Source of the DNA: Desulfofustis limnaeus
GTDB lineage: Bacteria; Desulfobacterota; Desulfobulbia; Desulfobulbales; Desulfocapsaceae
NCBI RefSeq assembly: GCF_023169885.1
Contig: NZ_AP025516.1
Span: forward strand, 2,552,501-2,616,500
DNA: 64,000 nucleotides
Direction of reading: 5' to 3'
Below are positions 43,756-63,754 of this stretch, one piece after another (the stretch's first letter is position 1; every line of letters begins with the position of its first letter). Both the position numbers and the translations under genes were made by a program. The notes under the pieces were generated by a model. The model was not told the DNA's origin. It did not search any database and saw nothing but the letters and a program-made list of their open reading frames with translations.

Positions 43756-44457
43756 TTACACAAAATCTGGAATGCTTGGCTTAACAAAATGATGGTTCAA
43801 TATTCGCAGCACTGCCGTCGAACTCCAATTCTTGCCACGAATTGTTTTGAAGCCACGAGCATTCAATTCCCGTGCTATTTGCCGCAGTGACTTGTCCGTG
43901 CCGATGTCCTCGATAACTTCATGCATGTTTGCAGCGTAGTCCGCTGCCTTCCGCAATTTCACCTCCCGCGCTGCCTTGGTATCACCGCTGCCGGGGATCT
44001 GTTTGCCGTCAACAAAGCAAGGATTGCCAAGCCTGACGCCACGTTTCTTCGCTTGCTCTAGTGCCGCTTTCGTTCGCTGGGAGATTAGCTTGCGTTCGTG
44101 CTGCGCCATGGCAGAGAAAATATGCACCGTCAATTCGTTCATGTCCGGTTGCTCTGCAACGACGAAATTGACTCCTGCCTTGCTCAGGGAGGTGATGAAG
44201 TGCAAATCCCTGCTCAACCGATCCAGCTTCGCTACGACCAACCTAGCGTTCTTTAACCGGCAATCCTTAATGGCCTTCTTGAGCGCCGGTCGGTCATCCT
44301 TGCCGCCAGATTCAATCTCAGTGTATTCGGAGACCATCTCCCAGTTGCCACCGTTCAGGTAATCCATGACTGTTTGTCGTTGAGCATCTAACCCAAGGCC
44401 ACTGTTCCCTTGTCGGTCAGTTGAAACCCGGTAATAACAGACGAATCGCCCTTCCAT
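43756..44457 (-). CDS. Serine recombinase (resolvase/invertase type)
   Basis: 233 residues. The catalytic Ser lies in CYYRVSTDRQ at residue 12. The core continues with LVVAKLDRLSRD and HIFSAMAQHERKLISQRTKAAL (E-helix). The C-terminal region (DKSLRQIARELNARGFKTIRGKNWSSTAVLRIL) is a Recombinase-type DNA-binding helix-turn-helix. It is small for a large serine integrase, so a resolvase-like role in island maintenance is more likely. It is transcribed alone on the minus strand. Confidence 0.9.
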   Translation of the reverse strand: MEGRFVCYYRVSTDRQGNSGLGLDAQRQTVMDYLNGGNWEMVSEYTEIESGGKDDRPALKKAIKDCRLKNARLVVAKLDRLSRDLHFITSLSKAGVNFVVAEQPDMNELTVHIFSAMAQHERKLISQRTKAALEQAKKRGVRLGNPCFVDGKQIPGSGDTKAAREVKLRKAADYAANMHEVIEDIGTDKSLRQIARELNARGFKTIRGKNWSSTAVLRILNHHFVKPSIPDFV

Positions 44458-46852: not shown

Positions 46853-48550
46853 GTGTCCGTCCGGAAAGGGCGATATTTTGTTAAACATCAAGGGACAAAA
46901 CGGCGCTGCCTTGAAAGAGACGGCGATTTTCAACGCGCAGGCGGGCATGACACCCATTCCTAACACCATCAAGACGCCGATTTTTCGATCTGCAGACGCA
47001 CCTCGGCTGTTTCGTCCCGGTACCTTCTTTTTTCTCGCTGCTCTCTCAGGCCGTGGCCAGCTGAATACGGGCCAGCACCGTGAGGTTGTAGGCAACAATC
47101 GCACTCCAGATATATGCCTTGAAGCCTTCCCAACCCGACCAGTTGCAACGCTTCAGCCCATAGCTTCGTTTCAACGTCGAAATGTTCGCCTCGATCCCGG
47201 CTCGAAAATTGCGCAACCGCCGATAAACCCACGTGCTCTTGGCCATGTCCACGATCGACAGACCGCGCTTCTTGGCAAAGACCACATCCTTGACGTCTGC
47301 TGCCTTGGCTCCCGCCAGGTTCGCCTGCGAAGCAAAGCCGCCATCCGCCGTGCTCTGCCGGGGCGGGCGTCCATACCGCTCGATATGCCGCTTCAACAAC
47401 GGCAGAAACCGCTCGGCATCGGCCGGGTTGCCTCGTTCCACCAGGCAGTCAAGAATCAGGTTCGACGCACCGCCGGTCAGGAACACCTTGTGCCCAAACT
47501 CCGTCTCACGCCGTCCTTTGACCAGGATGTCGGTGTGCGTCTCAAACAGCGACACGATCTTCTCCGACGCCGGTACCTGTTCACCTTTGAACACCCGTCG
47601 CTCGGTCTGGTCCATCACCCGCCGCAGCAGGTCAATGGCACGGGACAGTTTCTCGGCCAGCGCCCGGGCGTGAGTGTAGTCTTCAATCGAGTCTCCGCCG
47701 AAGTCGGCAAGCTCGGGGATCGCCTGCTCCGCATAAGCGATCACGCGACCGGCATAGTGCAGCATATCCCGGTAGGCCGTCTGGCGTGTCTCCTGCTTGG
47801 TAGCGTTCTGGATGGACAGCAACCGCTTCTTCACCACCCGCCGATGATCGCTGCACCCATAGCCGGGACAGGGGCTGAGTTCCTTGCCCTCAAACAGCCA
47901 GCGGGTGATGACCCGGATCCCGTCCCAGAGCAACGTCGCATCGGTCGGCCGGTGGATATCCGTTTGGACGGCGGTGGAGTCGAGTCGGATCTTCCGGCCG
48001 TTCTCGATCTTAGCCTGCTGGGCGTAGGCGAGCAGAAACTGGTGAATCGCCAGCCAGGCCTCTTCGCTCAGGGCCTTGATATTTTCCTGCAGGGTCGATT
48101 TGGCCGGAAAGTGTCCCGGTTCAAGGCGGACGAAGCTGCGAAACGAATGGGAGTCGGCCAGATAATAGGCCAGATCATCGTAGCTGAGTTCGCGGAACTG
48201 TTTGAGGAGCGTGCAGCGGACTACCTGTTCGGCAGTCATGCCCTGGCGGCCGGTATCGGAGCGGCTTTTCTTGAGCAGATCGGCATAGGCCTGGTCAAGC
48301 AGATGGTGGTCGGTTGCCAGGATGGCGTCCATCTGTTCCAGCTCACGAGGTCCGGGATGTTTGCCAAGAACCTCGAAGATCGTGGTTTGTGGATTGCGTT
48401 TTCTGCGCATGGACTCACCGATCAGATGGTAAATATCGAAACATATCGGTTGGTTGTCTCGCTCAGTGTAACAGATCGGCAGAAAAAATGCAGCCTGTTT
48501 TGTCAGGATTGTGAAACATTTTCAAACCGTTAGGGTTTCCGGACAGAAAC
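46853..48550 (-). mobile_element. ISNCY-type element (1698 bp, TSD TAAATA)
   Basis: Ends GTGTCCGTCCGGAAAG and, inverted, GTTTCTGTCCGGAAAC form imperfect repeats. The 6-bp duplication TAAATA lies at 46847-46852 and 48551-48556. Removing the element plus one duplication restores an open frame across both sides, which confirms the limits. Confidence 0.88.
47046..48410 (-). CDS. DDE transposase, ISNCY (ISDol1-like) type
   Basis: 454 residues starting MRRKRNPQTTIFEVLGKHP. The N-terminal DUF772-like region (TAEQVVRCTLLKQFRELSYDDLAYYLADSHSFRSFVRLEPG) is followed by KIRLDSTAVQTDIHRPTD (first Asp), RQSTADGGFASQANL (second Asp) and FRAGIEANISTLKRSYGLKRC (Glu). I assign it to the unclassified ISNCY/ISDol1 group from memory of these motifs. 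The gene is complete. Confidence 0.88.
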   Translation of the reverse strand: MRRKRNPQTTIFEVLGKHPGPRELEQMDAILATDHHLLDQAYADLLKKSRSDTGRQGMTAEQVVRCTLLKQFRELSYDDLAYYLADSHSFRSFVRLEPGHFPAKSTLQENIKALSEEAWLAIHQFLLAYAQQAKIENGRKIRLDSTAVQTDIHRPTDATLLWDGIRVITRWLFEGKELSPCPGYGCSDHRRVVKKRLLSIQNATKQETRQTAYRDMLHYAGRVIAYAEQAIPELADFGGDSIEDYTHARALAEKLSRAIDLLRRVMDQTERRVFKGEQVPASEKIVSLFETHTDILVKGRRETEFGHKVFLTGGASNLILDCLVERGNPADAERFLPLLKRHIERYGRPPRQSTADGGFASQANLAGAKAADVKDVVFAKKRGLSIVDMAKSTWVYRRLRNFRAGIEANISTLKRSYGLKRCNWSGWEGFKAYIWSAIVAYNLTVLARIQLATA

Positions 48551-51590: not shown

Positions 51591-51637
51591 CTGGTGCACC
51601 AGGAGAGATTCGAACTCCCGACCTACGGATTCGTAGT
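51591..51637. repeat. att site copy 2, junction of islands A and B
   Basis: 47 bp identical to copies 1 and 3. It marks the boundary between the two tandem elements. Confidence 0.93.
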
Positions 51638-51757
51638 ACGAAGACAAAAGCATTGAATGGCATTGAGGATTACTCATATATGCACGAATATATAGATTAA
51701 TAGTTTATTTTGTTGATATGATCAACGGCTTTCAATTGACAGGTATTGCTGAAATAT

Positions 51758-51776
51758 GCTTACATAGTGCTTACAC
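51758..51776. repeat. Integrase arm-like repeat, left end of island B
   Basis: GCTTACATAGTGCTTACAC contains two GCTTACA/GCTTACAC direct units, followed by an inverted TTACGTAAGC at 51791-51800. The same motif with one change occurs at 63603-63621, the right end of island B. It differs from the arm repeat of island A. Confidence 0.65.
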
Positions 51777-51846
51777 GGGAGATCTTCGGTTTACGTAAGC
51801 ATTCGTTAACGCGTCTCCCTCCACCTCTGCCGCAGGGGGCTATATA

Positions 51847-53166
51847 ATGGAGCGGATCAAATTCACCACTGGTCGCATTCGCGACTTGCAACATCCCGCA
51901 AGCGGCCAGGTGTTTTATTGGGACAGCGAGGTGAGAGGTCTTGGCGTTAGGGCCACTCAATCTACCAAATCGTTCGTATACCAAGGTCGCATCAACGGGA
52001 AAACAATCCGCATCAAGATCGGCGATGTGAGGACCTGGACGATAGACTCAAGTGATCCGGGTAGGCCAGGAGCGCGGCAAGAGGCTCGACGACTGCAATC
52101 CTTGATAGACAAAGGAATCGATCCACGTCTTGAAAAACAAGAACGCCTGGAGTTGCAAACAAAACAACGAGCGAGTGAGCACAAACAGTACTTACTAGTG
52201 CGAGATGTTTGGGGCGAATACCTTGAAGATCGCAGGCCGCATTGGGGAGAGCGCCACTACCTGGACCATCTACGCCTCACCCACACCGGCGGAGACAAGA
52301 AGAAAAGAGGCAAAGGGAAGACAAAACCAGCAGCGCTGTCGTCTTTAATGGACCTAAAATTAGCCGACCTGACCTCGGAGCAGCTACGGTCATGGGCGAC
52401 GAAAGAAGCGCCCCAACGGCCCGGTCAGACCCGACTCGGATATACTCTTCTCCGGGCGTTCTTTAGTTGGTGCCAAGAGCGCTCTGATTATAAAGACATA
52501 ATTGATTCTGCGGCCTTCTCTAGTCGAATAAGAAAGGACCTTATTCCCAAGCAACGTCCTAAAAGTGACAGTCTTCAACGAGAGCAACTCAAAGCGTGGT
52601 TCTCGGCGGTGAGGAAGATCGGCAACAAAGTTATTTCGGCATATCTTCAGAGCTTACTTCTAACAGGGGCGCGGCGTGAAGAGCTTGCCCATCTTCGATG
52701 GTCCGACGTCGATTTCAGTTGGAACAGCTTGGCTATACGTGACAAAGTAGATGGGTCAAGAACCATACCGCTGACCCCTTATGTTGCCTATTTGCTAATG
52801 GGATTGCCGCAACGTAACCAGTGGGTGTTTTACAGTCCCCGTGCAAAGGACGGCCGACTCCAAGAGCCTCGCAAAGCACATGAGCGGGCATTAACCGAAG
52901 CTGGCATCGATAACCTTTCCATTCACGGTCTGCGCCGGTCATTCGGCACCTTGTCTGAATGGGTGGAGACTCCTGTCGGCATTGTCTATCAAATAATGGG
53001 CCACAAACCATCGGCTACAGCCGAGAAACATTATCGTTCAAGGCCTATTGATTTACTACGCAAATGGCATACTAAGATTGAAGAATGGATTCTTGAGCAA
53101 GCAGAGATAGAAATAAGCGAATACCGGCGAGAGAGTGGTGATTTAAAACTCGTCTCAGGAGAATGA
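51847..53166 (+). CDS. int: Tyrosine integrase of island B
   Basis: 439 residues. The N-terminal arm-binding domain of DUF4102 type (DSEVRGLGVRATQSTKSFVYQGRINGK) is followed by a core-binding domain (residues 110-220). The catalytic residues are Arg in LLTGARREELAHLRW, His-x-x-Arg in IHGLRRSFGTL, His in IMGHKPSATAEKHYRSR and Tyr in HYRSR. It integrates at the same tRNA site as the island A enzyme despite low similarity. The sigma-54 activator gene starts 4 bp after its stop, so both may be co-transcribed. Confidence 0.93.
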   Translation: MERIKFTTGRIRDLQHPASGQVFYWDSEVRGLGVRATQSTKSFVYQGRINGKTIRIKIGDVRTWTIDSSDPGRPGARQEARRLQSLIDKGIDPRLEKQERLELQTKQRASEHKQYLLVRDVWGEYLEDRRPHWGERHYLDHLRLTHTGGDKKKRGKGKTKPAALSSLMDLKLADLTSEQLRSWATKEAPQRPGQTRLGYTLLRAFFSWCQERSDYKDIIDSAAFSSRIRKDLIPKQRPKSDSLQREQLKAWFSAVRKIGNKVISAYLQSLLLTGARREELAHLRWSDVDFSWNSLAIRDKVDGSRTIPLTPYVAYLLMGLPQRNQWVFYSPRAKDGRLQEPRKAHERALTEAGIDNLSIHGLRRSFGTLSEWVETPVGIVYQIMGHKPSATAEKHYRSRPIDLLRKWHTKIEEWILEQAEIEISEYRRESGDLKLVSGE

Positions 53167-53170
53167 AAAA

Positions 53171-54466
53171 ATGATTTCTAGCTTCGAAAAATTCGAACCA
53201 ATCCCTGGGCTGCACGGTTGCATTCGGAGATTTAGATCCCTTCTCAAAGTATCGGAGAAATTTGATCATATTCTCATTAGAGGTCCGCGTGGCTGTGGAA
53301 AAAGCTATTTTTTGAAAGAATTTATTGAGGGGAATGACCTTCCTGATGAGGTTGCACATATAAACTGCGCCACAATTCACCCCGCAACTGCGGAAAGCGA
53401 GTTGTTCGGACATGTTCAGGGGGCTTTCACAGGTGCACACAAGGAGGTAGTGGGGCATATTAAGTCAGCAGAAAAACACGGTGTATTGCTGCTCGAAGAA
53501 ATTAATAGTCTTCCTTTAGAGATACAGGCGAAATTATTAGTGTTCATGGAAACCATGACTTATTACCCTATGGGAAGCCGGAAAAAAGAGACAGCAGAAG
53601 TTAGAATAGTAGCAACAGCAAACAACGAAACTGCGCATGGGATTCGTTTCGACGTTGAGGACAGATTCAAGATAACTATTGACGTCCCTCCCCTATATCT
53701 TCGCAGAAATGACATTTTTTATTATGTAGGATTGCGTTATCCCAACATGGAATTTGGTATTTACGATCTTTTTCGATTATATAACAGGCCTTGGCCTGGA
53801 AATTTTAGAGAACTTGAAAAAGTACTTTTTGAAAGGAAAAGTGGCCTTGAAATTGGTTCGTTTTTCCCTACTTTTTCAACACATTTTCACGAATTAATTG
53901 ATCAGATCGATTATTCTGCAATGATCAATATTGATCGGCAATCACGAAAAAAGAGAAGCGACAGAAAAACAGTCAACGATTCTAATAAGGGATATTTTTG
54001 CAAGATTAGTCTTTCAAAGAAACCGGTAGCTGTTTGGATTGATTTTCTAATGGGTAGCAAAGAAACACTAAGTGGTATTGAATTTGTCGGTGATCGCGGT
54101 AATAGTTTGTTTCCGCTCCCATTGTACAAATCAGTTACGATTACTATTTACGATAAAAACAAGAAAGAAATTCAAAAATTGCCAGACGGTTTTGTGCCTA
54201 ATACTTTATCTAAAATTTATGGTAGTGGTTCTCTCAAGTATCATAAAGATATTTTTGAATATCCAGAAGAAACAGAAAGCAAAAAGATGGAAAGTTTGAC
54301 ACCGCAGCAGGTAGCCAATTATTTAATTAGCAATCAAGGAGTGTTCCCGGAAGTAATGCGATCAATTGTTGAAAATCACCAATGTGGAGGACAGTCAAGA
54401 CTTTCTGAAATTTTGGGAGTACCGAGAAACACCATTTCTAACTGGAAAAAGTCAGGTCGTTTTTAA
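53171..54466 (+). CDS. Receiver-less sigma-54-dependent activator (AAA+, GAFTGA)
   Basis: 431 residues. The protein begins directly with the AAA+ domain: Walker A GPRGCGKS (38-45), the sigma-54 contact loop GAFTGA (84-89) and Walker B GVLLLEE (104-110, with Glu where Asp is usual). NRPWPGNFRELEKVLF is the conserved WPGN-REL segment. A unique 110-residue domain (about 255-365) precedes a C-terminal HTH (RLSEILGVPRNTISNWKKSGRF). As in PspF there is no N-terminal sensor, so activity must be controlled by synthesis, by another protein or by the middle domain. It lies between the integrase and a sigma-54 promoter that it presumably activates. Low G+C. Confidence 0.88.
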   Translation: MISSFEKFEPIPGLHGCIRRFRSLLKVSEKFDHILIRGPRGCGKSYFLKEFIEGNDLPDEVAHINCATIHPATAESELFGHVQGAFTGAHKEVVGHIKSAEKHGVLLLEEINSLPLEIQAKLLVFMETMTYYPMGSRKKETAEVRIVATANNETAHGIRFDVEDRFKITIDVPPLYLRRNDIFYYVGLRYPNMEFGIYDLFRLYNRPWPGNFRELEKVLFERKSGLEIGSFFPTFSTHFHELIDQIDYSAMINIDRQSRKKRSDRKTVNDSNKGYFCKISLSKKPVAVWIDFLMGSKETLSGIEFVGDRGNSLFPLPLYKSVTITIYDKNKKEIQKLPDGFVPNTLSKIYGSGSLKYHKDIFEYPEETESKKMESLTPQQVANYLISNQGVFPEVMRSIVENHQCGGQSRLSEILGVPRNTISNWKKSGRF

Positions 54467-54474
54467 AATAACAA

Positions 54475-54493
54475 AATGGAACAATGTTCCATT
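54475..54493. promoter_or_regulatory. Candidate upstream activator sequence for the sigma-54 promoter
   Basis: AATGGAACA-A-TGTTCCATT, a perfect 19-bp palindrome beginning 9 bp after the activator gene stop and about 120 bp upstream of the -24 element. Distance and symmetry fit an enhancer bound by a dimeric bacterial enhancer-binding protein. Confidence 0.62.
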
Positions 54494-54612
54494 AACTCGA
54501 ACAGACTCTAGTATTCCTCTCTTTTTTTCGCCCCCCGCTCCTGTTGCGCCGAAACAGGTAAAACACTGTCAAAATAGACCCTTAGGGTATGTAACGCTCC
54601 AAAAACATCCTT

Positions 54613-54628
54613 TGGCACGATAGTTGCT
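54613..54628 (+). promoter_or_regulatory. Sigma-54 (-24/-12) promoter
   Basis: TGGCACGATAGTTGCT matches the sigma-54 consensus TGGCACG-N4-TTGCW at every fixed position, with GG at 54614-54615 and GC at 54626-54627 in correct spacing. Transcription would start near 54640, about 70 bp before the gene at 54710. It is expected to drive the replication and packaging genes of island B. Confidence 0.85.
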
Positions 54629-54709
54629 TTCGATACGTTGGGTTCAATAGTTATTTCTTTATAACGTCTTAACACAATTGAATAAAAAAAAATCAAGAGG
54701 GCTGGCCAG

Positions 54710-54958
54710 ATGAAAAATCTCAATCGTGTTCGCTCCCTGAGAGTCCCAAGAACCAGTACGCGCGGCTTGGCTGAAACAATAGGGGTTCAGCCTGATAGTA
54801 TAAGGCGTAGCTTTTGCGTCAACGGTCACTACATGGGATTGCGACCGATAAAAATGCCAAATGGTCGTTTGTCGTGGCCGCTTGTTACCCCTGAAGATTT
54901 TGCGGGGACGACTTTATTTTCTATTACTTCAGGCGATGGCCAGATGAGTGATGGCTAA
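54710..54958 (+). CDS. Small HTH DNA-binding protein, first gene after the sigma-54 promoter
   Basis: 82 residues. TRGLAETIGVQPDSIRRSFCVNGHYMGLRPIKMPNGRLSWP is a small excisionase/AlpA-like HTH pattern frequent in proteobacterial islands. It may be the excisionase or a regulator, and its position under the sigma-54 promoter would couple excision to replication. Ribosome site AGAGGG is weak. Confidence 0.65.
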   Translation: MKNLNRVRSLRVPRTSTRGLAETIGVQPDSIRRSFCVNGHYMGLRPIKMPNGRLSWPLVTPEDFAGTTLFSITSGDGQMSDG

Positions 54959-55087
54959 AGAAGTTACCAGAGAAGAAATTAGATAGGATTTAGCATCATT
55001 ACCGATGAAAAATGAACGACCGAGCTGTCTGAAGCACCCCCTGCAGCAGGAACCACGATAAAACAACCCTATTAAAGCGTAGAAAAT

Positions 55088-57427
55088 ATGAATAAAATTG
55101 ATAAGCAAATAGGGATACCGCCGAAACCGGCATATCTTTCTGTGGCACCAGAGAATATCCCCGACGATCTGAAGCATTTTCCGCAGTGGGTGTGTTGGCG
55201 GGCTGAATGGAACGGTAAGAAATGGACAAAGCCCCCATATCAGATCAACGGTCACAAGGCGGACAAGACGAACCCGGCGCACTGGTCTAGCTACGACGAG
55301 GTTGTGGCGGCGTATCAAGACGAGGAAAGCGGCTTCGACGGAATCGGCTTCTGTGTCACCGAGAACGACCCGTTCGCCTTTGGAGACCTAGACCATTGCC
55401 TCGATAATTGTGACAGGCAGGCAATAGCCGACCGTATCGTTGGGTTACTGGATAGCTACACCGAGAAATCACCAAGCGGAGACGGTCTCAGGATCATAAC
55501 CAAAGGGAAGTTGCCAGCCAACCACCGGATAAACGGTTTCGAATTTTACTCAAGCGTTTGGTATTTGACGATCACAGGCAACGTGTATCTCGATAAGGGC
55601 ATTGAAGAACGGCAGACCGAGTTTGGCCAGCTTTACCAGGACCTATTCCCCGATAAACAGCAGGCCGTAACGACTGAAAGCAATCATGCAGAATGGACGC
55701 AGGCCGACAAAGACCTGTGCGCCAGAATCGCCGGTTCAAAGCAGGGTGAAAAATTCCAACGCCTGTTTTCCGGAAATTTCGACGGATATCCGTCAAAGAG
55801 CGAAGCGGACCTTGCGCTCTGCTGTGTTTTGTCTTTCTGGATCGACAAAGACGTGAAACAGATAGACAGGATATTCCGGCAATCAAAACTGTATCGTCCA
55901 AAATGGGACGATAAGCATGGTGACCAGACCTATGGCGAAATGACCATAGGCAAGGCGATAGAGAAATGCACCGAGACGGTCGGCAGTAAAATGACAATCG
56001 TCGAACCTGCCGCTGCAGGTGATGACGTAGATGAGATCACCATCATAGAGTGGCCGGTTCTCGACGATAAGGCTTTGCACGGTTTCGCTGGTCGTTTCGT
56101 GAGGTTCGCCACAGAGAACAGCGAGGCAGACCCGGCGGCGGTGCTGGCAACCTTCCTTGTCCGGTTCGGCGTTGAGGTCAATAACCCCATCCTCTGGGTA
56201 GGAGACACGAAGCACCGGGCCAATCTGTCAGCGGTCCTTGTCGGTGCATCGAGCAAGGCGCGGAAGGGCACATCAGCAAAGCCCGTGGAGCGTCTCTTTG
56301 AGCCCCTTCTTCTTGACGATGACAACCTCGTTGGCGACCGAGCCAGGACAACACCAGGGCCGTTCAGTTCCGGCGAGGGTATCGTCTGGGCGGTTCGTGA
56401 TGCTGTCTGGGGCACCGACAGGAAAACCGGCAAATTAATAGAGGTTGACCCTGGCGTTTCCGACAAACGGCTGTTTGTCCTCGACGAAGAGTTCGGCGGC
56501 GTTATGACGCAGACGAGGCGCGAGGGGAACATTCTTTCGATGATCATCCGCACTGTATGGGACACCGGAAACCTTGACCCATTGACGAAGACCAGTAAGG
56601 TCAAGGCGACCGGGGCGCATATCGGATGGGTATCTCATATCACCGTTTTTGAGCTTCTTACGCGGCTGTCAGAGTCGGAGTCATTGAACGGATTCGCAAA
56701 CCGTATCCTGTGGGTCTGCGCCAGGCGTACAAAGCTGGTGCCCTGGCCTGCTCCAATGGACCGCTCGATACTCAACCAGTACCAGCACGAGCTTTCAGAA
56801 ATTCTTGCTGCGCACCGTGGGACCGTCGAGGTCAGACCGGACGAAGAGGTTCGCCTGGCATGGTCAGATAAATACTATCGGCAACTCACGGAGGAACGTC
56901 CCGGCCTTGCAGGTTGCGTTGTGAATCGTGCAGAATCTCAGGTAATGCGGCTGGCGATGGTCTATGCCCTGCTGGACAAGAGCCATGTCATCAGGATCGA
57001 ACACCTTGAAGCAGCGATAGCATTCTGGAGATATTGTGAAGAGTCGGCAATGTACATCTTCGACGGACGGCAGGGTGACGGTGTTGCACAGCGGATCATA
57101 GAGCATCTCCAAGACGGGCCGAAGACAGCCACAGAGATACACCGACTGTTTAGCAGCCACGTTACCAAGGAACGCTTGAAACGGGCGCTGACGGAGCTAG
57201 AGGGCGCAGGAAGAATCGGAACAGAGAAGGAGACAACGGGAGGCAGGCCGACAACAACCTACTTTCTGAAAGACCTAAGCGTAAAAAGAGTAAAAAGCGT
57301 GGAAACGGAAAAACCAGGCATTACCGGCAGGGATACTATTCTTATTACGCTTAATACGCCGAGTGCAAAACAAAACGAGCGAACGACCAGCGGAAACAAT
57401 GGCCTGCACTATGCGGGGGTAATATGA
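55088..57427 (+). CDS. Primase-polymerase / DUF3987-type helicase replication protein
   Basis: 779 residues. The N-terminal 200 residues (ENIPDDLKHFPQWVCWRAEWNGKKWTKPPYQ ... GIGFCVTENDPFAFGDLDHCLD ... KSPSGDGLRIITKG) match the NrS-1-type primase-polymerase domain, with acidic metal ligands in GDLDH. The C-terminal 450 residues resemble DUF3987 proteins with a degenerate helicase fold, and a winged helix ends the protein (TATEIHRLFSSHVTKERLKRALTELEGAGRIG). It would initiate and prime island replication. It overlaps the next gene by 4 bp. Confidence 0.82.
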   Translation: MNKIDKQIGIPPKPAYLSVAPENIPDDLKHFPQWVCWRAEWNGKKWTKPPYQINGHKADKTNPAHWSSYDEVVAAYQDEESGFDGIGFCVTENDPFAFGDLDHCLDNCDRQAIADRIVGLLDSYTEKSPSGDGLRIITKGKLPANHRINGFEFYSSVWYLTITGNVYLDKGIEERQTEFGQLYQDLFPDKQQAVTTESNHAEWTQADKDLCARIAGSKQGEKFQRLFSGNFDGYPSKSEADLALCCVLSFWIDKDVKQIDRIFRQSKLYRPKWDDKHGDQTYGEMTIGKAIEKCTETVGSKMTIVEPAAAGDDVDEITIIEWPVLDDKALHGFAGRFVRFATENSEADPAAVLATFLVRFGVEVNNPILWVGDTKHRANLSAVLVGASSKARKGTSAKPVERLFEPLLLDDDNLVGDRARTTPGPFSSGEGIVWAVRDAVWGTDRKTGKLIEVDPGVSDKRLFVLDEEFGGVMTQTRREGNILSMIIRTVWDTGNLDPLTKTSKVKATGAHIGWVSHITVFELLTRLSESESLNGFANRILWVCARRTKLVPWPAPMDRSILNQYQHELSEILAAHRGTVEVRPDEEVRLAWSDKYYRQLTEERPGLAGCVVNRAESQVMRLAMVYALLDKSHVIRIEHLEAAIAFWRYCEESAMYIFDGRQGDGVAQRIIEHLQDGPKTATEIHRLFSSHVTKERLKRALTELEGAGRIGTEKETTGGRPTTTYFLKDLSVKRVKSVETEKPGITGRDTILITLNTPSAKQNERTTSGNNGLHYAGVI

Positions 57428-57801
57428 GCGCGGCAGAAGATATTTTGAGTGATTGCTTCAACGCAGGCATCGTCCTTTTTGTGGACGGAAACGGTTTGCA
57501 TTATGCCGCAGCGGAACCATTGCCGCAGGAAATGGCGATCCGTTTACGGAGTCACAAGGCGGCGGTGATTGACATCCTGACCCGGCAGCGCACCGGCGTG
57601 CCGTATCTTCACAACGGCGAGTTCAGGGTTCGTGGTGGGCTGTTACAGACCCCGATACTGGATGCACTGCTATCTGTGGGCGCGAGTGATGCCGAGATCG
57701 AGAAGCACATCCACCCCAAGGGAACTCCAAGGCAATGGGCGCGATGGCTGGAAGTAAAGAAAGAACGGGCGCTTGTTTATGCTGTGCCTGACAAACAATA
57801 A
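57424..57801 (+). CDS. TubC-docking-domain-like small protein
   Basis: 125 residues. The N-terminal 50 residues (AAEDILSDCFNAGIVLFVDGNGLHYAAAEPLPQEMAIRLRSHKAAVIDIL) match the TubC N-terminal docking-like domain often found beside mobile-element primases. The C-terminal part is basic. The start overlaps the primase stop (ATGA), so it probably acts with the primase. Confidence 0.68.
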   Translation: MSAAEDILSDCFNAGIVLFVDGNGLHYAAAEPLPQEMAIRLRSHKAAVIDILTRQRTGVPYLHNGEFRVRGGLLQTPILDALLSVGASDAEIEKHIHPKGTPRQWARWLEVKKERALVYAVPDKQ

Positions 57802-57815
57802 TATCGAGGACAGTC

Positions 57816-58181
57816 ATGGAACGAAACAAAGTTGAAATGACCGGCACGGTCAGCAAATTGCGGTCAATCCCGACCAAGAAGGGAACCGCTATGGTCAAGT
57901 TTTTCATCAACGTCGATCAGCACCGTTTCTTGTGCGTCGCGTTCGCCGGAGTAGCCGACGCGATCCAGGCTGCTGGCGAAGGTGCGGAGATCGGCGTATC
58001 CGGTACGGCGGCAATCAACTCCTGGCAACCGGAGCCGGGGCAATGGCGCAATGATTTCCAGCTTTTCGTCTGGACCGTCAAAATCGGCAGCGCTGTTACC
58101 GTGTTTCAAAAAGAAGGAAAACCCACAGCACATAAGAACAGAAATCAAGGGATACCGGAATACGCCGGTGGACCGTTCTAA
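57816..58181 (+). CDS. SSB-like OB-fold protein
   Basis: 121 residues. KVEMTGTVSKLRSIPTKKGTAMVKFFINVDQHRFLCVAFAGVADAIQAAGEGAEIGVSGTAAINSW follows the OB-fold strand pattern of single-strand DNA-binding proteins, with a short Gly-Gly-Pro-Phe C-terminus reminiscent of the SSB tip. It lies in the replication block of island B with a good ribosome site. Confidence 0.65.
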   Translation: MERNKVEMTGTVSKLRSIPTKKGTAMVKFFINVDQHRFLCVAFAGVADAIQAAGEGAEIGVSGTAAINSWQPEPGQWRNDFQLFVWTVKIGSAVTVFQKEGKPTAHKNRNQGIPEYAGGPF

Positions 58182-58199
58182 AACCGTAAGGAGAAAATC

Positions 58200-59024
58200 A
58201 TGCTTAACAGAACTCAGGAAGAGATGCTTATCACCAGTCATACGAACTCGCTTCACACTGGCAATATCAGGACTTGGATCGGTAGCGAGGTCAAAGAACC
58301 CGCCAATGTCAAGCATAGCCGATCGCTGTCTGCCGGGTCCGTGAAACTGAAAAACATCGTGGAAAGCCTCAGAACGATGCGCCTCAAGGTGCCGTCCATC
58401 GACATTGAGCGCTCGGTTGAAGCTTCGATAACCCACCCTGCTGGGGGGCTGGTTGCTGTGTCAACCGACGACGCGGATAGAGCCGAGTGGGAAGGGTCTG
58501 GCCTATTCGACAACACCAAGACAAGGCGCTTCTCTTCAGGTGGCCCGCATTTTAGCCTGGAAGACTTCGGGCAACTACCCGGAGCTAAGAAGGGAGCTTC
58601 GGAGCGGTTCAGAGAGGCCATAGATGGTCTCGAAAAGATGGGTTATGGCTTCCGTATCGACAGCGGCCCAAAGGATTATTTCGTGATTAACCGCAACGGA
58701 TGTGAGACTGCGATTACGATCAGATTCAGAAGGACTGAGAACGAACGCAGGAAAGCGATCAAGGCCGAGCACAGACGATTCCTTATTGAGTGTCCCTGCT
58801 GCCATGAGGTCTTGCTTCAGACCACGGAAGACTACGACCCTGACGTTCAAACCACGGGGGCAATGCTCGTCAATTACGGACCAGCTGCGGACGGGAATTG
58901 GAGCAGGGAATACGGCGACGAGGATTTCGGGACGAGCATTGTTTGCGTTTCCTGTTCGGCTCCGCTGCTTGACCCTGTCACGGGTAAGTTAGAACCAAAA
59001 TACCTTGATCCAATCAAGGATTAA
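58200..59024 (+). CDS. Island B protein of unknown function with a zinc-ribbon-like pair
   Basis: 274 residues. CPCCHEVLL (about residue 200) and CVSCSAPLL (about residue 250) could form one zinc site. The middle section (HFSLEDFGQLPGAKKGASERFREAIDGLEKMGYGFRI) is helical. I recognise no family. It is tightly packed between the SSB-like gene and the terminase-like genes. Confidence 0.6.
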   Translation: MLNRTQEEMLITSHTNSLHTGNIRTWIGSEVKEPANVKHSRSLSAGSVKLKNIVESLRTMRLKVPSIDIERSVEASITHPAGGLVAVSTDDADRAEWEGSGLFDNTKTRRFSSGGPHFSLEDFGQLPGAKKGASERFREAIDGLEKMGYGFRIDSGPKDYFVINRNGCETAITIRFRRTENERRKAIKAEHRRFLIECPCCHEVLLQTTEDYDPDVQTTGAMLVNYGPAADGNWSREYGDEDFGTSIVCVSCSAPLLDPVTGKLEPKYLDPIKD

Positions 59025-59104
59025 AACTAGCCACCCAAACCTGATGCCCCCTGTGTTCATCCACAGTGGGGCGTTGGTCAACCAAGTCAACTTGACGGTC
59101 AACC

Positions 59105-59578
59105 ATGACAGATAAAACCATTAATGATACCAAGCTATTACGGTTAATTGACCGTGAAAAACTAACACAGGTGGAAGCGGCTCGTGAACTAGGTGTGACC
59201 AAGCAGGCTGTCAATAACCGCCTTAAACAACTTCGAGGCCGCTCCACTCATGCCATCGTTGCGGACAGGATAGATTCGGTTATCGACCAGAAGATCGACA
59301 CCTGGCAGCAACTGGAAAAGGTCAACCTGAAGGCAAACGAACTGCTAGACCAAGCAGAGGACGATGTACAGCAGTCGGTAGCTCTGATGAAAGAGATCCG
59401 CGAACAGCTCAAGCTCCAGATGGAGTTGTTCAAGACCCTCTGGGATGTCAAAGCTGCCATGCTTTTTCAGGATACTGTGCTGGACGTTATCGGCAGAATC
59501 GCCCCTGATGTCCGTAAGCAGATCCTCCAGGAGCTCAACAGCAAATCGGCAATCCGCAATGCCGTGACCTTTCGGTGA
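59105..59578 (+). CDS. Terminase small-subunit-like HTH protein
   Basis: 157 residues. An N-terminal HTH (KLTQVEAARELGVTKQAVNNRLKQLRG) is followed by a long coiled-coil-like middle and a short C-terminal helix, the architecture of small terminase proteins that recognise pac sites and oligomerise. It ends 4 bp before the large terminase-like gene. Assignment depends on that neighbour, and a regulatory role is possible. Confidence 0.62.
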   Translation: MTDKTINDTKLLRLIDREKLTQVEAARELGVTKQAVNNRLKQLRGRSTHAIVADRIDSVIDQKIDTWQQLEKVNLKANELLDQAEDDVQQSVALMKEIREQLKLQMELFKTLWDVKAAMLFQDTVLDVIGRIAPDVRKQILQELNSKSAIRNAVTFR

Positions 59579-59582
59579 CACG

Positions 59583-61172
59583 ATGCAAGCATACGTAACA
59601 CGGCGGCGCGATGAACTCCTAAGTACTCTGCTCGACCGGATGAACACCACCTTTGCCGATGAAGAAAGTGCGCTGGAGCAGTACCAGACAAACCCCGTCG
59701 CCTTTGCCGAGAATGTTCTTGAAGAGAGTCTGACTGGCGATGTCAAGCGGTTGATGGAATCGGTGCGAGACTACCCCATCACCATTGCCCGATCAGCAAA
59801 TGCCACAGGCAAAACTCATGGTGCCGCCAGGGTGGCTGTCTGGTTTTACAAATCCTTTCCCGGCAGTCAGGTCTATACCGCCGCTGCCCCTCCACAGGCG
59901 AACCTTGAAAAACTGCTTTGGGGCGAACTGGGCGGGTTGATAGAACAACACCCGAAACTGTTCCAGAACGACACCACGAAAAACCTGCATATTGAGCGTT
60001 CAGCGCAAAGCTTTATCACCGGGGTATCGATCCCCCTTTCCGGTACGGCAGCACAACGACAGGCGAAATTCAGCGGCAAACACGCCCCTCATCTGCTGTT
60101 CATTGTCGATGAGGGTGACGCGGTACCCGATGAGATTTTCACTGCTATCGAGTCGTGTCTCTCCGGTGGTCATGGCCGGTTGTTGGTCATGTTTAACCCC
60201 CGTGCTGAGCAGGGAGAGGTCTATCGCATGGAACGGGACGGACGAGCGAATATCGTTGAGCTAACCGCCTTCAACCATCCGAACGTCCGAACCGGCGAAA
60301 CCGTCATTATGGGGGCCGTAGACCGACAAACGGCAGTAAGGCGTATCCAGCAGTGGTCAAGGCCGTTATCCGAGCGGGAACGACCTGATTCAAATTGTTT
60401 CAAAGTCCCCTCGTTCCTGGAAGGAGCAACTGCCGTCGACCAGGCCGGAAGGTTTTTGCCGCCATTGCAGGGGGGCTGGCGCAAGATCACAGAGCCCGCT
60501 TTCTCGTATATGGTTCTTGGCAGATATCCGGCGCAATCGGCCCGACAGCTTATTAGCCGAGAATGGATCGACCGTGCTCGTTCCCGTTGGGATGCCTACG
60601 TTGGCCAGCATGGCGAAGTTGCACCGGTAGGAACGCGGGCAAAGATGGGACTCGACGTGGGCGAGTTTGGAACAGATGCCAATGCGGCATGTTTTCGTTA
60701 TGGTGGTTTTGTTGAGAGGCTAGTTACATGGTCGGGTGTCGATCCTCTCATGACCGCAGATCGAGCCGTTGAGGAATTTCTTAGCCGCGATGTCTCCCGC
60801 TGCTCAGTCGATGCAACCGGTGTCGGCGCTGGTGTCGCCCCCCAAATGGCTCGGATGGGCTGTTTGGCTCACAGTGTGAAAGTAGCATCATCGCCAAATG
60901 AGGCGTCAGAATTAGGCGATTTTGGGTTGTTACGGGATCAATTGTGGTGGTCTGTTCGTGAATGGTTGCGAACCGATTCCGGCGCGATGCTGCCGCCTGA
61001 CGAGCAGTTAATCGAGGAACTACTCTGTCCTACCTATGATACTGAAGGCGGCAAGGTTCGTATCATGAAAAAAGGGGTTATGCGGGATCTTTTGAAACGA
61101 AGTCCAGACCGGGCAGACGCCCTGTGTCTTACCTTCCATGAGCCCGCCTTACTATTCTCATTTTTGGAGTAA
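59583..61172 (+). CDS. Phage terminase large subunit
   Basis: 529 residues. The ATPase domain has a Walker A SANATGKT at 71-78, VYTAAAPPQANLEKLLWGEL, and Walker B LLFIVDEGDAV at 171-181. The nuclease domain has the RNase H-type acidic residues D357 (KMGLDVGEFGTD), about D411 (CSVDATGVGAG) and about D515 (SPDRADALCLT). It packages DNA into preformed proheads. With no portal or capsid genes in the element, it would have to use those of a helper phage. All motifs look intact. Confidence 0.88.
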   Translation: MQAYVTRRRDELLSTLLDRMNTTFADEESALEQYQTNPVAFAENVLEESLTGDVKRLMESVRDYPITIARSANATGKTHGAARVAVWFYKSFPGSQVYTAAAPPQANLEKLLWGELGGLIEQHPKLFQNDTTKNLHIERSAQSFITGVSIPLSGTAAQRQAKFSGKHAPHLLFIVDEGDAVPDEIFTAIESCLSGGHGRLLVMFNPRAEQGEVYRMERDGRANIVELTAFNHPNVRTGETVIMGAVDRQTAVRRIQQWSRPLSERERPDSNCFKVPSFLEGATAVDQAGRFLPPLQGGWRKITEPAFSYMVLGRYPAQSARQLISREWIDRARSRWDAYVGQHGEVAPVGTRAKMGLDVGEFGTDANAACFRYGGFVERLVTWSGVDPLMTADRAVEEFLSRDVSRCSVDATGVGAGVAPQMARMGCLAHSVKVASSPNEASELGDFGLLRDQLWWSVREWLRTDSGAMLPPDEQLIEELLCPTYDTEGGKVRIMKKGVMRDLLKRSPDRADALCLTFHEPALLFSFLE

Positions 61173-61175
61173 ACC

Positions 61176-61919
61176 ATGAAAGAACAACAAATCAAGCAGG
61201 TTCCATCAGAAGTGACAATGAAAGAAGACCGCAGGGCCTTTGTGAACGGTGATTTTGTCGATGTGGAGGGCGAACCCCCACCCCGTAAATTCTATTTTGC
61301 CTGGAAAGAGAAAAAGTATTACCACTTCTGTGGTGCCATCGGCTGGCCGATTTTGAGCAGCGACCAAGAGGGGTGCGCTTTGGTCATCGGGGTTACCCGT
61401 GAAGACACGCCACGGTATGAGATTGTTGATTCCAAGTCCTCTGATAGCGTAACCGATCTACTCCTTGGCTGCCTTGAACTGCGGGACAGATTTGGGTTCC
61501 GTGAATGCTCACAGTTGTTCCCCCACTGGATAGCCGACGATCAGCACCCGGAAAAAATCACAGAAATGGTAACCAGTTTTAGCCGCAAAATGCGTGATGA
61601 ATGTGACTTATACAAAGGCTTGTATATCAACTCTCCCGCAGATTTTAAGACCGGTGCCGACGAACTCTACATCCGCACACTGAGAGAGGTGGGTTTCAGC
61701 AAGCGCCTGGTATTCACTACTGATTCAGAGTGGATAAAGCAACGTATCCAGACCATGACCAGGGATGCTATCTCGCTTAAAGAAAATCCTCCCGCCGCTG
61801 CTTTGGCCTACGCCATTTATGATATGGAGCTAGCCCGACCATGGTTGCAATGGGATCGGTCGTTTAGCCTTGATGACAAGAGCACCTTCGATGACGATAG
61901 GAGCTGCAACCTGGACTGA
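61176..61919 (+). CDS. Island B protein of unknown function after terminase
   Basis: 247 residues starting 3 bp after the terminase stop. The N-terminal part is basic, and the rest has an alpha/beta pattern (FYFAWKEKKYYHFCGAIGWPILSSDQEGCALVIGVTRED; CLELRDRFGFRECSQLFPHWIADDQHPEKI). It resembles accessory proteins following phage terminases, but I do not recognise the family. Confidence 0.6.
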   Translation: MKEQQIKQVPSEVTMKEDRRAFVNGDFVDVEGEPPPRKFYFAWKEKKYYHFCGAIGWPILSSDQEGCALVIGVTREDTPRYEIVDSKSSDSVTDLLLGCLELRDRFGFRECSQLFPHWIADDQHPEKITEMVTSFSRKMRDECDLYKGLYINSPADFKTGADELYIRTLREVGFSKRLVFTTDSEWIKQRIQTMTRDAISLKENPPAAALAYAIYDMELARPWLQWDRSFSLDDKSTFDDDRSCNLD

Positions 61920-62094
61920 TAATCCCAAACTGAAGACAAAAAGCTTGTCTCGCTTCTCTCGTTTGTTATATTTTTTTCTCGTCAGGCCTTTGAGCCTGTA
62001 GTAGCGGCTCGCCACCTTGAGCTTTTCCCGAGTAAAAGGCGGGCCGTCTGTTTTTTTGCCACTTGCCTGAACAACAAGATTCACGGAGGAGGGT

Positions 62095-62310
62095 GTGAAG
62101 AAAATAGCCGCTATGATTTCTGTTGGCGCTGCTGCTGCCGTATTTGCACTCTGGTATTCACAACCGAAATCATACGAAGACTGTGTGTTGAAAAATCTTA
62201 AAGGCGTTGAAAGTGAGATGGCGGCTCGATTGGTTCACGCCGCTTGCAGAGAAAAATTCCCAGAGCCGCCAAATCCATTCGATCAGTTCGACAACCAGCC
62301 CAGTAAGTAA
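62095..62310 (+). CDS. Small exported or membrane-anchored protein
   Basis: 71 residues with a GTG start at 62095 directly after GGAGGAGG. An N-terminal hydrophobic segment (IAAMISVGAAAAVFALWYS) is followed by SYEDCVLKNLKGVESEMAARLVHAACREKFP. This is a short Cys-containing motif seen in many small phage and plasmid proteins. Probably periplasmic, function unknown. Confidence 0.62.
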   Translation: MKKIAAMISVGAAAAVFALWYSQPKSYEDCVLKNLKGVESEMAARLVHAACREKFPEPPNPFDQFDNQPSK

Positions 62311-62534
62311 TCTCTATTAAGGTGAAATGAGTGTTTTGATAGAATAGGAGAGTAGGTGTCCTATCTTAGTCTTTGGTGATGTTAGCTACTTCCTCATGAA
62401 AAAACTCTTCTTCATCAATATGTTGAGCTACATCCAATAGAAAAGAGACTGTCTTAATCTGGCATAAAGTTCATGGTAAGATTTTTTTATTGTGCATATC
62501 ATCTACTTATCGTCTTACTGCTAATGGAGAGAGA

Positions 62535-63422
62535 ATGAAACTGATCAAAACGACATCAATATGTGTGACAATAGTTCTCATCTTTTCACTCTTTGTCATT
62601 CATGCTCATGCAAAGGTTGAATGTAACGAGCTAAAAAAAAATGAAATAATTCTCTGGGAAGCTGAGCTGTTAATATTTGATGAAATCACAGCAGACGATC
62701 CATTTTTAGTTCAAAAATGTATTGATAAATACCCTTCCTTAGCAACATTTCTGGATAGTCCTGGTGGTGATATTGACGCTGCAATGACAATTGGTAAAAT
62801 TTTACGAACTAACCGAAAGAGCGTTTTTGTTAAACAATCGTCTCAATGCGTGAGTGCGTGTGTTTTGATACTTGCTGGAGCGGTTAATCGTGCTCCTTAT
62901 GGAATTATTGGAATCCACCGGCCATATTCTACAAGAACTGGAATTGTTAATTTTGATTATGCACAAAACAAATACCAGAAAATCAAGTCAGATGTAGAGA
63001 ATTATTTACGTCTAATGAATATTCCTGCCTCGCTTTTCTCTGCTATGGAGCGAATACCACCAGAGGAAACAAAGATTCTTACTGCTCACGAAATTGATGC
63101 TTATGGATTAAGCGGCATGGATCCAGTAGAAAATGAAGTTCAAAATGCGTATTATGCTGACCAAAGGGGGGTATCAATTCAAGAGTATATTCGCCGAAAA
63201 GAAGAAGCTAAAAGACTATGTAAACAGAGCTATAAAACATCAAGCAACGATATGTTATCTGAGTTTGACTGTAGAGAAGCTGTCTCATGGGGGTTGACAA
63301 CAAGTGTATATAACTCACGTCGAATGAGATTGTCGCTTTGTGATAAAGACAAAATGAACTACGGCCTAGAATCAAGAGAATACAATTCTTGTGTTAGAGA
63401 AATCATGAATGGCACTAAATAA
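62535..63422 (+). CDS. Exported ClpP/SppA-like protease-fold protein
   Basis: 295 residues from the ATG at 62535. A signal peptide (residues 5-26, ending AHA) exports it. The clan SK fold is visible as ATFLDSPGGDIDAAMTIGKILR (oxyanion Gly-Gly) and QCVSACVLILAGAVNRAPYGIIGIHRPY, with the likely catalytic Ser in VSAC and a His in GIHRPY. Similar periplasmic ClpP-like proteins occur singly in proteobacteria with unknown substrates. It is AT-rich cargo at the distal end of island B. Confidence 0.75.
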   Translation: MKLIKTTSICVTIVLIFSLFVIHAHAKVECNELKKNEIILWEAELLIFDEITADDPFLVQKCIDKYPSLATFLDSPGGDIDAAMTIGKILRTNRKSVFVKQSSQCVSACVLILAGAVNRAPYGIIGIHRPYSTRTGIVNFDYAQNKYQKIKSDVENYLRLMNIPASLFSAMERIPPEETKILTAHEIDAYGLSGMDPVENEVQNAYYADQRGVSIQEYIRRKEEAKRLCKQSYKTSSNDMLSEFDCREAVSWGLTTSVYNSRRMRLSLCDKDKMNYGLESREYNSCVREIMNGTK

Positions 63423-63602
63423 AAAATACAAAAAAATAGATAATATATAGTAATACTAACGCTTTCTGTTCTGATTTAATGGATGTTCCGATTTAGGATA
63501 AACTCAGGGTATACCCCTCCGGGTAGTGGATTGGCCGTAATGGATGTTGAGGTTTTAGGACGGCGAGTTGAGTGGAGAAGCGGAGAGGGCTGAAGAGAAA
63601 TT

Positions 63603-63621
63603 GCTTACATAGCGCTTACAC
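63603..63621. repeat. Integrase arm-like repeat, right end of island B
   Basis: GCTTACATAGCGCTTACAC, differing by one base from 51758-51776. It lies 55 bp from att copy 3. Confidence 0.65.
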
Positions 63622-63637
63622 AATCATAAAAAGAAAA

Positions 63638-63669
63638 AGGCAGTTACAAGATTCAACCTGTAACTGCCT
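63638..63669 (-). terminator. Terminator of tRNA-Arg(ACG) supplied by island B
   Basis: AGGCAGTTACA pairs with TGTAACTGCCT, with an A-run on the left (T-run on the minus strand). It lies 8 bp after the tRNA 3' end. Its sequence differs from the chromosomal version at 37891, showing that the incoming element replaced the terminator. Confidence 0.8.
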
Positions 63670-63676
63670 GATATTT

Positions 63677-63723
63677 CTGGTGCACCAGGAGAGATTCGAA
63701 CTCCCGACCTACGGATTCGTAGT
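63677..63723. repeat. att site copy 3, inside the intact tRNA-Arg(ACG)
   Basis: The 47-bp core from the CCA end to the anticodon loop, identical to copies at 37929 and 51591. Integration here keeps the tRNA intact. Confidence 0.93.
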
Positions 63724-63754
63724 CCGTTGCTCTATCCAACTGAGCTACTGGTGC
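63678..63754 (-). tRNA. tRNA-Arg (anticodon ACG)
   Basis: Minus strand. Acceptor GCACCAG pairs with CTGGTGC, D-arm GCTCAGTTGGATAGAGC, anticodon stem ACGGA/TCCGT with loop CTACGAA (anticodon ACG, A34 expected to become inosine), T-arm CGGGAGTTCGAATCTC, CCA encoded. It is the target of both islands. Confidence 0.97.

Follow-up and report, generated by a model that had tools for sequence, protein, structure and literature searches.

The window, by which we mean the whole 64,000-nt stretch of Desulfofustis limnaeus DNA that was analysed, carries a 12.1-kb element (51591-63723) at a tRNA-Arg gene. The element is flanked by a 47-bp perfect direct repeat of the 3' end of tRNA-Arg(acg), and the genes and sites between the repeats are given below, with ACT as our name for the activator.

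51591-51637, unstranded: attL, 47-bp copy of the tRNA-Arg 3' end (direct repeat, bounds taken from sequence)
51847-53166, plus strand: tyrosine integrase (Arm-DNA-bind_3 + Phage_integrase; PF00589 E 4.3e-17, PF13356 E 6.3e-9)
53171-54466, plus strand: ACT, sensor-less sigma-54 activator (bEBP), 431 aa (PF00158 E 8.6e-32)
54475-54493, unstranded: putative enhancer (UAS), perfect palindrome AATGGAACAATGTTCCATT
54613-54628, plus strand: putative sigma-54 -24/-12 promoter TGGCACGATAGTTGCT, 12/12 consensus positions
54710-54958, plus strand: 82-aa HTH protein in the AlpA/excisionase position, a slot that homologues fill in many int-X-HTH elements
55088-57427, plus strand: primase/helicase-like replication protein (NrS1 HBD PF22763 E 2.4e-28; phrog_1829 DNA primase E 3.7e-84)
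57424-57801, plus strand: 125-aa protein with a weak TubC_N match (PF18563 E 7e-6), 90% identical in the second element L017
57816-58181, plus strand: SSB-like protein (PF00436 E 0.023, under cut-off), with a relative in L050
58200-59024, plus strand: 274-aa protein, no known relative
59105-59578, plus strand: 157-aa HTH protein, terminase-small-subunit-like by position only (generic HTH matches)
59583-61172, plus strand: terminase large subunit (phrog_2 E 2.7e-27)
61176-61919, plus strand: 247-aa protein, no assigned family
63677-63723, unstranded: attR, within an intact tRNA-Arg(acg) at 63678-63754 (minus strand)

Pfam and PHROGs searches of the element gave no capsid, tail or lysis gene, and for this reason it is satellite-like: it looks like a phage satellite rather than a phage, and its mobility has not been shown. 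The terminase large subunit has no other match in the host genome. No Pfam model matches the 82-aa HTH protein itself, the AlpA models PF05930 and PF12728 included; PF12728 is weakly matched by a relative in L066 and matched over cut-off by the HTH protein of the diverged element L180, and the AlpA likeness of the 82-aa protein rests on position and distant homology only. Near the right end the element carries as cargo a secreted ClpP-like protease-like protein (62490-63422, PF00574 E 4e-6). A second mobile region adjoins its left side, with a transposase-like ORF at 47046-48410 and a resolvase-like ORF at 43756-44457 (both recognized by eye from the translations).

ACT starts 4 bp past the stop codon of the integrase gene. 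The preliminary description had presented it as an AAA+ activator with intact Walker A and GAFTGA motifs and no N-terminal sensor, and this was borne out: PF00158 matches from residue 23 (110.6 bits against a curated cut-off of 20.2), Walker A reads GPRGCGKS, the GAFTGA loop is intact, R165 and WPGNFREL are also present, and no receiver, GAF or PAS domain was found with Pfam. Walker B reads LLLEEI, with E where D is usual. The protein consists of the AAA+ domain (residues ~23-230), a variable middle of 130 aa (~236-370) and a C-terminal HTH (~395-431) with a YdaS/CI-type match under the Pfam cut-off. The AAA+ core of an AlphaFold2 model has a pLDDT mostly above 85 and was matched by Foldseek to the structures of NtrC1, FlrC and PspF. 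For the middle (236-370) no Pfam family was found and the AlphaFold2 pLDDT is below 50. Residues 255-365 had also been put forward as a possible sensor, for instance of a helper-phage protein; this is not supported, since no relative of them was found by the searches used and the pLDDT is low. The dN/dS is 0.15 in the AAA+ domain and 0.49 in the middle, therefore the motor is kept while the middle changes. The closest NCBIfam AAA+ match of ACT is RtcR (121.8 bits versus a cut-off of 650, aligned from RtcR residue 200), and membership is not met because the N-terminal CARF domain is absent and the score is far under the cut-off; membership in PspF is not met either (94.3 bits versus an NCBIfam cut-off of 443.55). 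Peptide patterns recovered no close ACT relative in viral and genome contigs, and a search of 258 genomes of the host class with the C-terminal half gave convincing scores for the host's two copies only. The host genome encodes one RpoN.

Directly 3' of the ACT gene lies the palindrome (19 bp with perfect 9-nt arms), as had been reported. Of 300 shuffled versions of the intergenic region, 3 equalled it in quality. Allowing up to three mismatches, it occurs only twice in the 4,232,141-bp genome, each time directly behind an ACT gene, and a search of viral contigs returned two chance matches only, inside unrelated coding genes. The sigma-54 promoter claimed to lie about 120 bp further on, ahead of the replication genes, is likewise there as a predicted site, with 119 bp between its edge and that of the palindrome and 130 bp between the palindrome centre and the GG of the -24 box. 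It is an exact match to TGGCACG-N4-TTGCW, which none of 2000 intergenic shuffles reached. Exact matches number one in the window and three in the genome; one of the others precedes a gene for a ZraP-like periplasmic protein (function named by eye). When one mismatch is also allowed the genome has 46 sites versus 37 in the control, barely over, and therefore only exact or well-positioned matches carry weight. A second inverted repeat (54540-54558) was considered as a site and rejected, as it is not kept in L017.

L017 is a second element in the same genome (G000 C1, ~3.528-3.541 Mb). It has the left half, from the integrase to the SSB region, in common with the window element; its right half differs and has its own PF03592 small terminase gene. 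The common left and different right halves point to modular exchange between two co-resident elements. The ACT of L017 is 88% identical to that of the window. At the DNA level the region of the C-terminal HTH is 97% identical and the rest ~92-93%, and the palindrome arms are identical, the centre base alone being changed. The L017 promoter has two changes, one of them in the -12 C, and the GAFTGA loop reads GAFTDA. The latter sequence is found in EBPs judged able to activate, including Desulfovibrio vulgaris DVU2106 with an assigned regulon (PMC4641369).

Two diverged activators, L180 and L292, with ~32% identity to ACT, were found in separate Desulfobulbales mobile elements. Both loci have the order activator, palindrome near the stop codon, TGGCACR-N4-TTG, small HTH gene and replication gene. 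In L180, from the same family as the host, an integrase lies 31 bp upstream of the sensor-less activator, which has an exact GAFTGA and a C-terminal HTH_8 (Fis) match just under cut-off; behind it are an imperfect palindrome, GGTAACGATATATCGTCACC, plus a half-site, the promoter-like site TGGCACACATCTTGAG, an HTH_17 protein and a DUF3631 protein. Taken alone, this promoter site is not significant (9/12, p 0.13) and the palindrome is marginal, with 22 of 300 shuffles doing as well. A tRNA-Arg beside the L180 integrase was rejected as an att site (no repeat of the tRNA, wrong orientation). L292 stood out in the profile search with 245 bits versus ~150 for ordinary EBPs. Its activator loop is GAFTDA, its palindrome spans the activator stop codon, and the promoter-like site TGGCACGCTTATTGGA is followed by a 91-aa protein, a RepB-type primase, a helicase and a DUF5681 protein, with an integrase further on. 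The distance from palindrome centre to the -24 GG is 130 bp in the window and 128, 140 and 133 bp among L017, L180 and L292, and the promoter scores of the four are 12, 11, 11 and 9 out of 12, the 12 being that of the window and the 9 that of L180. A tree built mainly from ordinary EBPs groups ACT in one clade with the activators of L017 and L292 (100/96); L180 joins them as a long branch at 99/80, and the four stand apart from the remaining EBPs. The original reading was to fall if palindrome and promoter were not conserved next to homologous activators; both are kept in L180, L292 and L017.

A profile search in a second class of the same phylum, Desulfobacterota, found ACT relatives of 548-621 residues in 8 of 297 genomes (L310-L318 and L296; e.g., L311:5151-9132 and L316:3569-7857), three of the loci in a single genome (G741). 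These far relatives adjoin a glycine-rich protein of ~370-480 aa without a family and a queuine tRNA-ribosyltransferase-like protein, and the loci are possibly another mobile or nucleic-acid-modifying system. In L310, L312 and L315-L317 a 10-11/12 site faces the divergent neighbour operon, the other strand giving 8 at most. The promoter-like site scores 11/12 in L311 and 10/12 in L318/L296, the latter having GASSTA instead of GAFTGA; L314 (9/12) and L313 (8/12) are without a convincing promoter site. The last base of the -12 box (C) is kept in four of the ten listed sites and absent in L017, L180 and L292. Loss of this base should weaken a classical promoter.

As controls we used 29 elements that have a related integrase, HTH protein or primase and another protein in the place of the activator. 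None has an EBP, and the best promoter match ahead of the HTH gene does not exceed 9/12, with most at 7-8. The sigma-54 site therefore goes with the activator and not with the type of element. Sites of at least 10/12 are found in 7 of 10 activator lineages versus 0 of 29 controls (Fisher p 8e-6). This value is generous because the longer stretches searched for the divergent cases (355-502 nt in far relatives versus 260 nt in controls) favour the far relatives. No EBP was present behind the integrase in any of 82 integrase-relative loci checked in GTDB and IMG/VR. The protein in that place is extremely variable in L063, L066, L067 and L068-L165, with no Pfam family in most of those tested, and resembles in its variability the iolg genes of PICMI. 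EBPs in viral contigs are mostly ordinary-looking, many of them close to contig ends, and TGGCACR-N4-TTG stands just behind the gene in 3 of 75, a reminder that EBPs are often near their own targets. Two viral contigs (L209 and L213) have EBP genes with TGGCACGATTCTTGCT 30 bp past the stop codon; these may represent flanking host DNA or a switch carried by a phage.

We consider it probable that ACT is the element's own sigma-54 master switch for its early operon. Sequence and comparison give the parts, the order and spacing in which they occur, how they are conserved, and the lack of the promoter in elements without the activator, and there are no transcription or binding data; DNA binding by ACT, a need for RpoN, the length of the operon and the signal are inferred. 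ACT would be made together with the integrase, and its C-terminal HTH would bind the palindrome that follows the ACT gene. A DNA loop over ~130 bp could then let ACT drive host RpoN-RNA polymerase at 54613-54628, and this promoter would start an early operon that encodes the AlpA-like HTH protein and the primase and probably takes in the genes further downstream. With the early operon driven by ACT, the element would thus be silent until ACT is activated. The fast-changing middle domain may be the likeliest site of signal action, the signal perhaps coming from a helper phage; that source is a guess made from the satellite-like gene content.

The position of ACT allows another interpretation. 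PICMI, satellites of Vibrionaceae, have the order int - iolg - alpA - primase with alpA and primase in an early operon, and the iolg of PICMI115, a gene with 13 families of unknown function, overlaps and is essential for excision (PMC10803314). ACT is in the same position of an int - X - AlpA-like - primase arrangement, and elements with related integrases have very different proteins at that place, so ACT could be an integrase accessory of the iolg type that acts in an excision complex, the early operon being run by another promoter. We think this unlikely: it leaves unexplained the GAFTGA motif, the exact -24/-12 site and the element-specific palindrome, as well as the absence of the site from elements without an EBP.

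Very little weight is given to the possibility that ACT, as cargo, rewires the sigma-54 genes of the host, with the element's promoter being incidental. Relatives of the host do have many EBPs, and the NifA of a Mesorhizobium ICE controls symbiosis genes (PMC3538637), but the palindrome is nowhere else in the genome at three or fewer mismatches, and an activator with its adjacent site recurs in other elements. It is just as hard to believe that ACT is inactive and the promoter-like site is left over in a decaying relic. GAFTDA and the lost -12 C in L017, and the lack of this C in other copies, would fit such decay; EBPs with GAFTDA have nevertheless been judged able to activate, DVU2106 among them (PMC4641369), the dN/dS of the ACT AAA+ domain is 0.15, and the module recurs in diverged lineages.

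Single features of the proposed sigma-54 switch have counterparts in known systems. Like PICMI, the window element has int, a gene that overlaps or touches int, an AlpA-type HTH gene and primase in this order and no capsid genes. It differs in its site and size (tRNA-Arg and 12.1 kb, versus fis and a prototype of ~6 kb), in its terminase large subunit, and in having ACT where PICMI have a gene without known function; rpoN is not mentioned in that report (PMC10803314). Gram-negative PICI such as EcCICFT073 are also similar, with int, an AlpA-position regulator, primase, sometimes terS, ~15 kb in length and no structural or lysis genes, which the window element also lacks, although it has a large terminase. 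In EcCICFT073, AlpA activates its own operon, and the portion of the report that we could consult mentions no EBP or sigma-54 promoter (PMC6092414). PspF and RtcR have an AAA+ core with GAFTGA like ACT, and PspF likewise has no sensor at its N terminus; in Salmonella the signal to which RtcR responds depends on a prophage (PMC9879122). ACT differs from both in the 130-aa region between AAA+ and HTH and in its location next to int on a mobile element, and it does not have the CARF domain of RtcR. The preliminary description had called the design undescribed, which holds in part only. An EBP on a mobile element is not new, because ICEs with the NifA/RpoN pair for cargo are known: in the Mesorhizobium loti symbiosis ICE the regulon is described as symbiotic, and what we could see of the source reports no role in driving the early replication operon of the ICE itself (PMC3538637). 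EBP-like proteins have also been seen in phage genomes already, since the AAA+ core of ACT, like that of the L180, L292 and L311 activators, is matched by phrog_7998, a phage protein group for which no function, promoter or context is described. Use of a sigma-54 switch for a satellite's own early operon was not found in the literature searched, subscription papers excluded. The layout recurs with related activators in other mobile elements, so the arrangement is apparently an on-switch for elements of this kind that has not been described before, with no experiment yet behind it.

The usual view of mobile elements is that repressors keep them silent or that sigma-70 promoters start them. Control by sigma-54 is tight, with nothing transcribed in the absence of the activator, and here it would couple the exit of the element to an ATP-driven, signal-gated protein; such elements are predicted to need hosts with RpoN. 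We raise only tentatively, as a possibility that may well fail, a satellite class in which the middle domain of a resident sigma-54 activator senses the helper phage, which triggers ATP-driven opening of a poised RpoN promoter and so starts alpA and primase. How a helper phage turns on alpA and primase of PICMI has been stated as open (PMC10803314). The proposed switch offers a testable answer to the role of the gene between int and alpA in at least one satellite branch (cf. PMC10803314). If true, a helper-sensing ACT would be a mechanism for early-operon turn-on in int-X-alpA-primase satellites.
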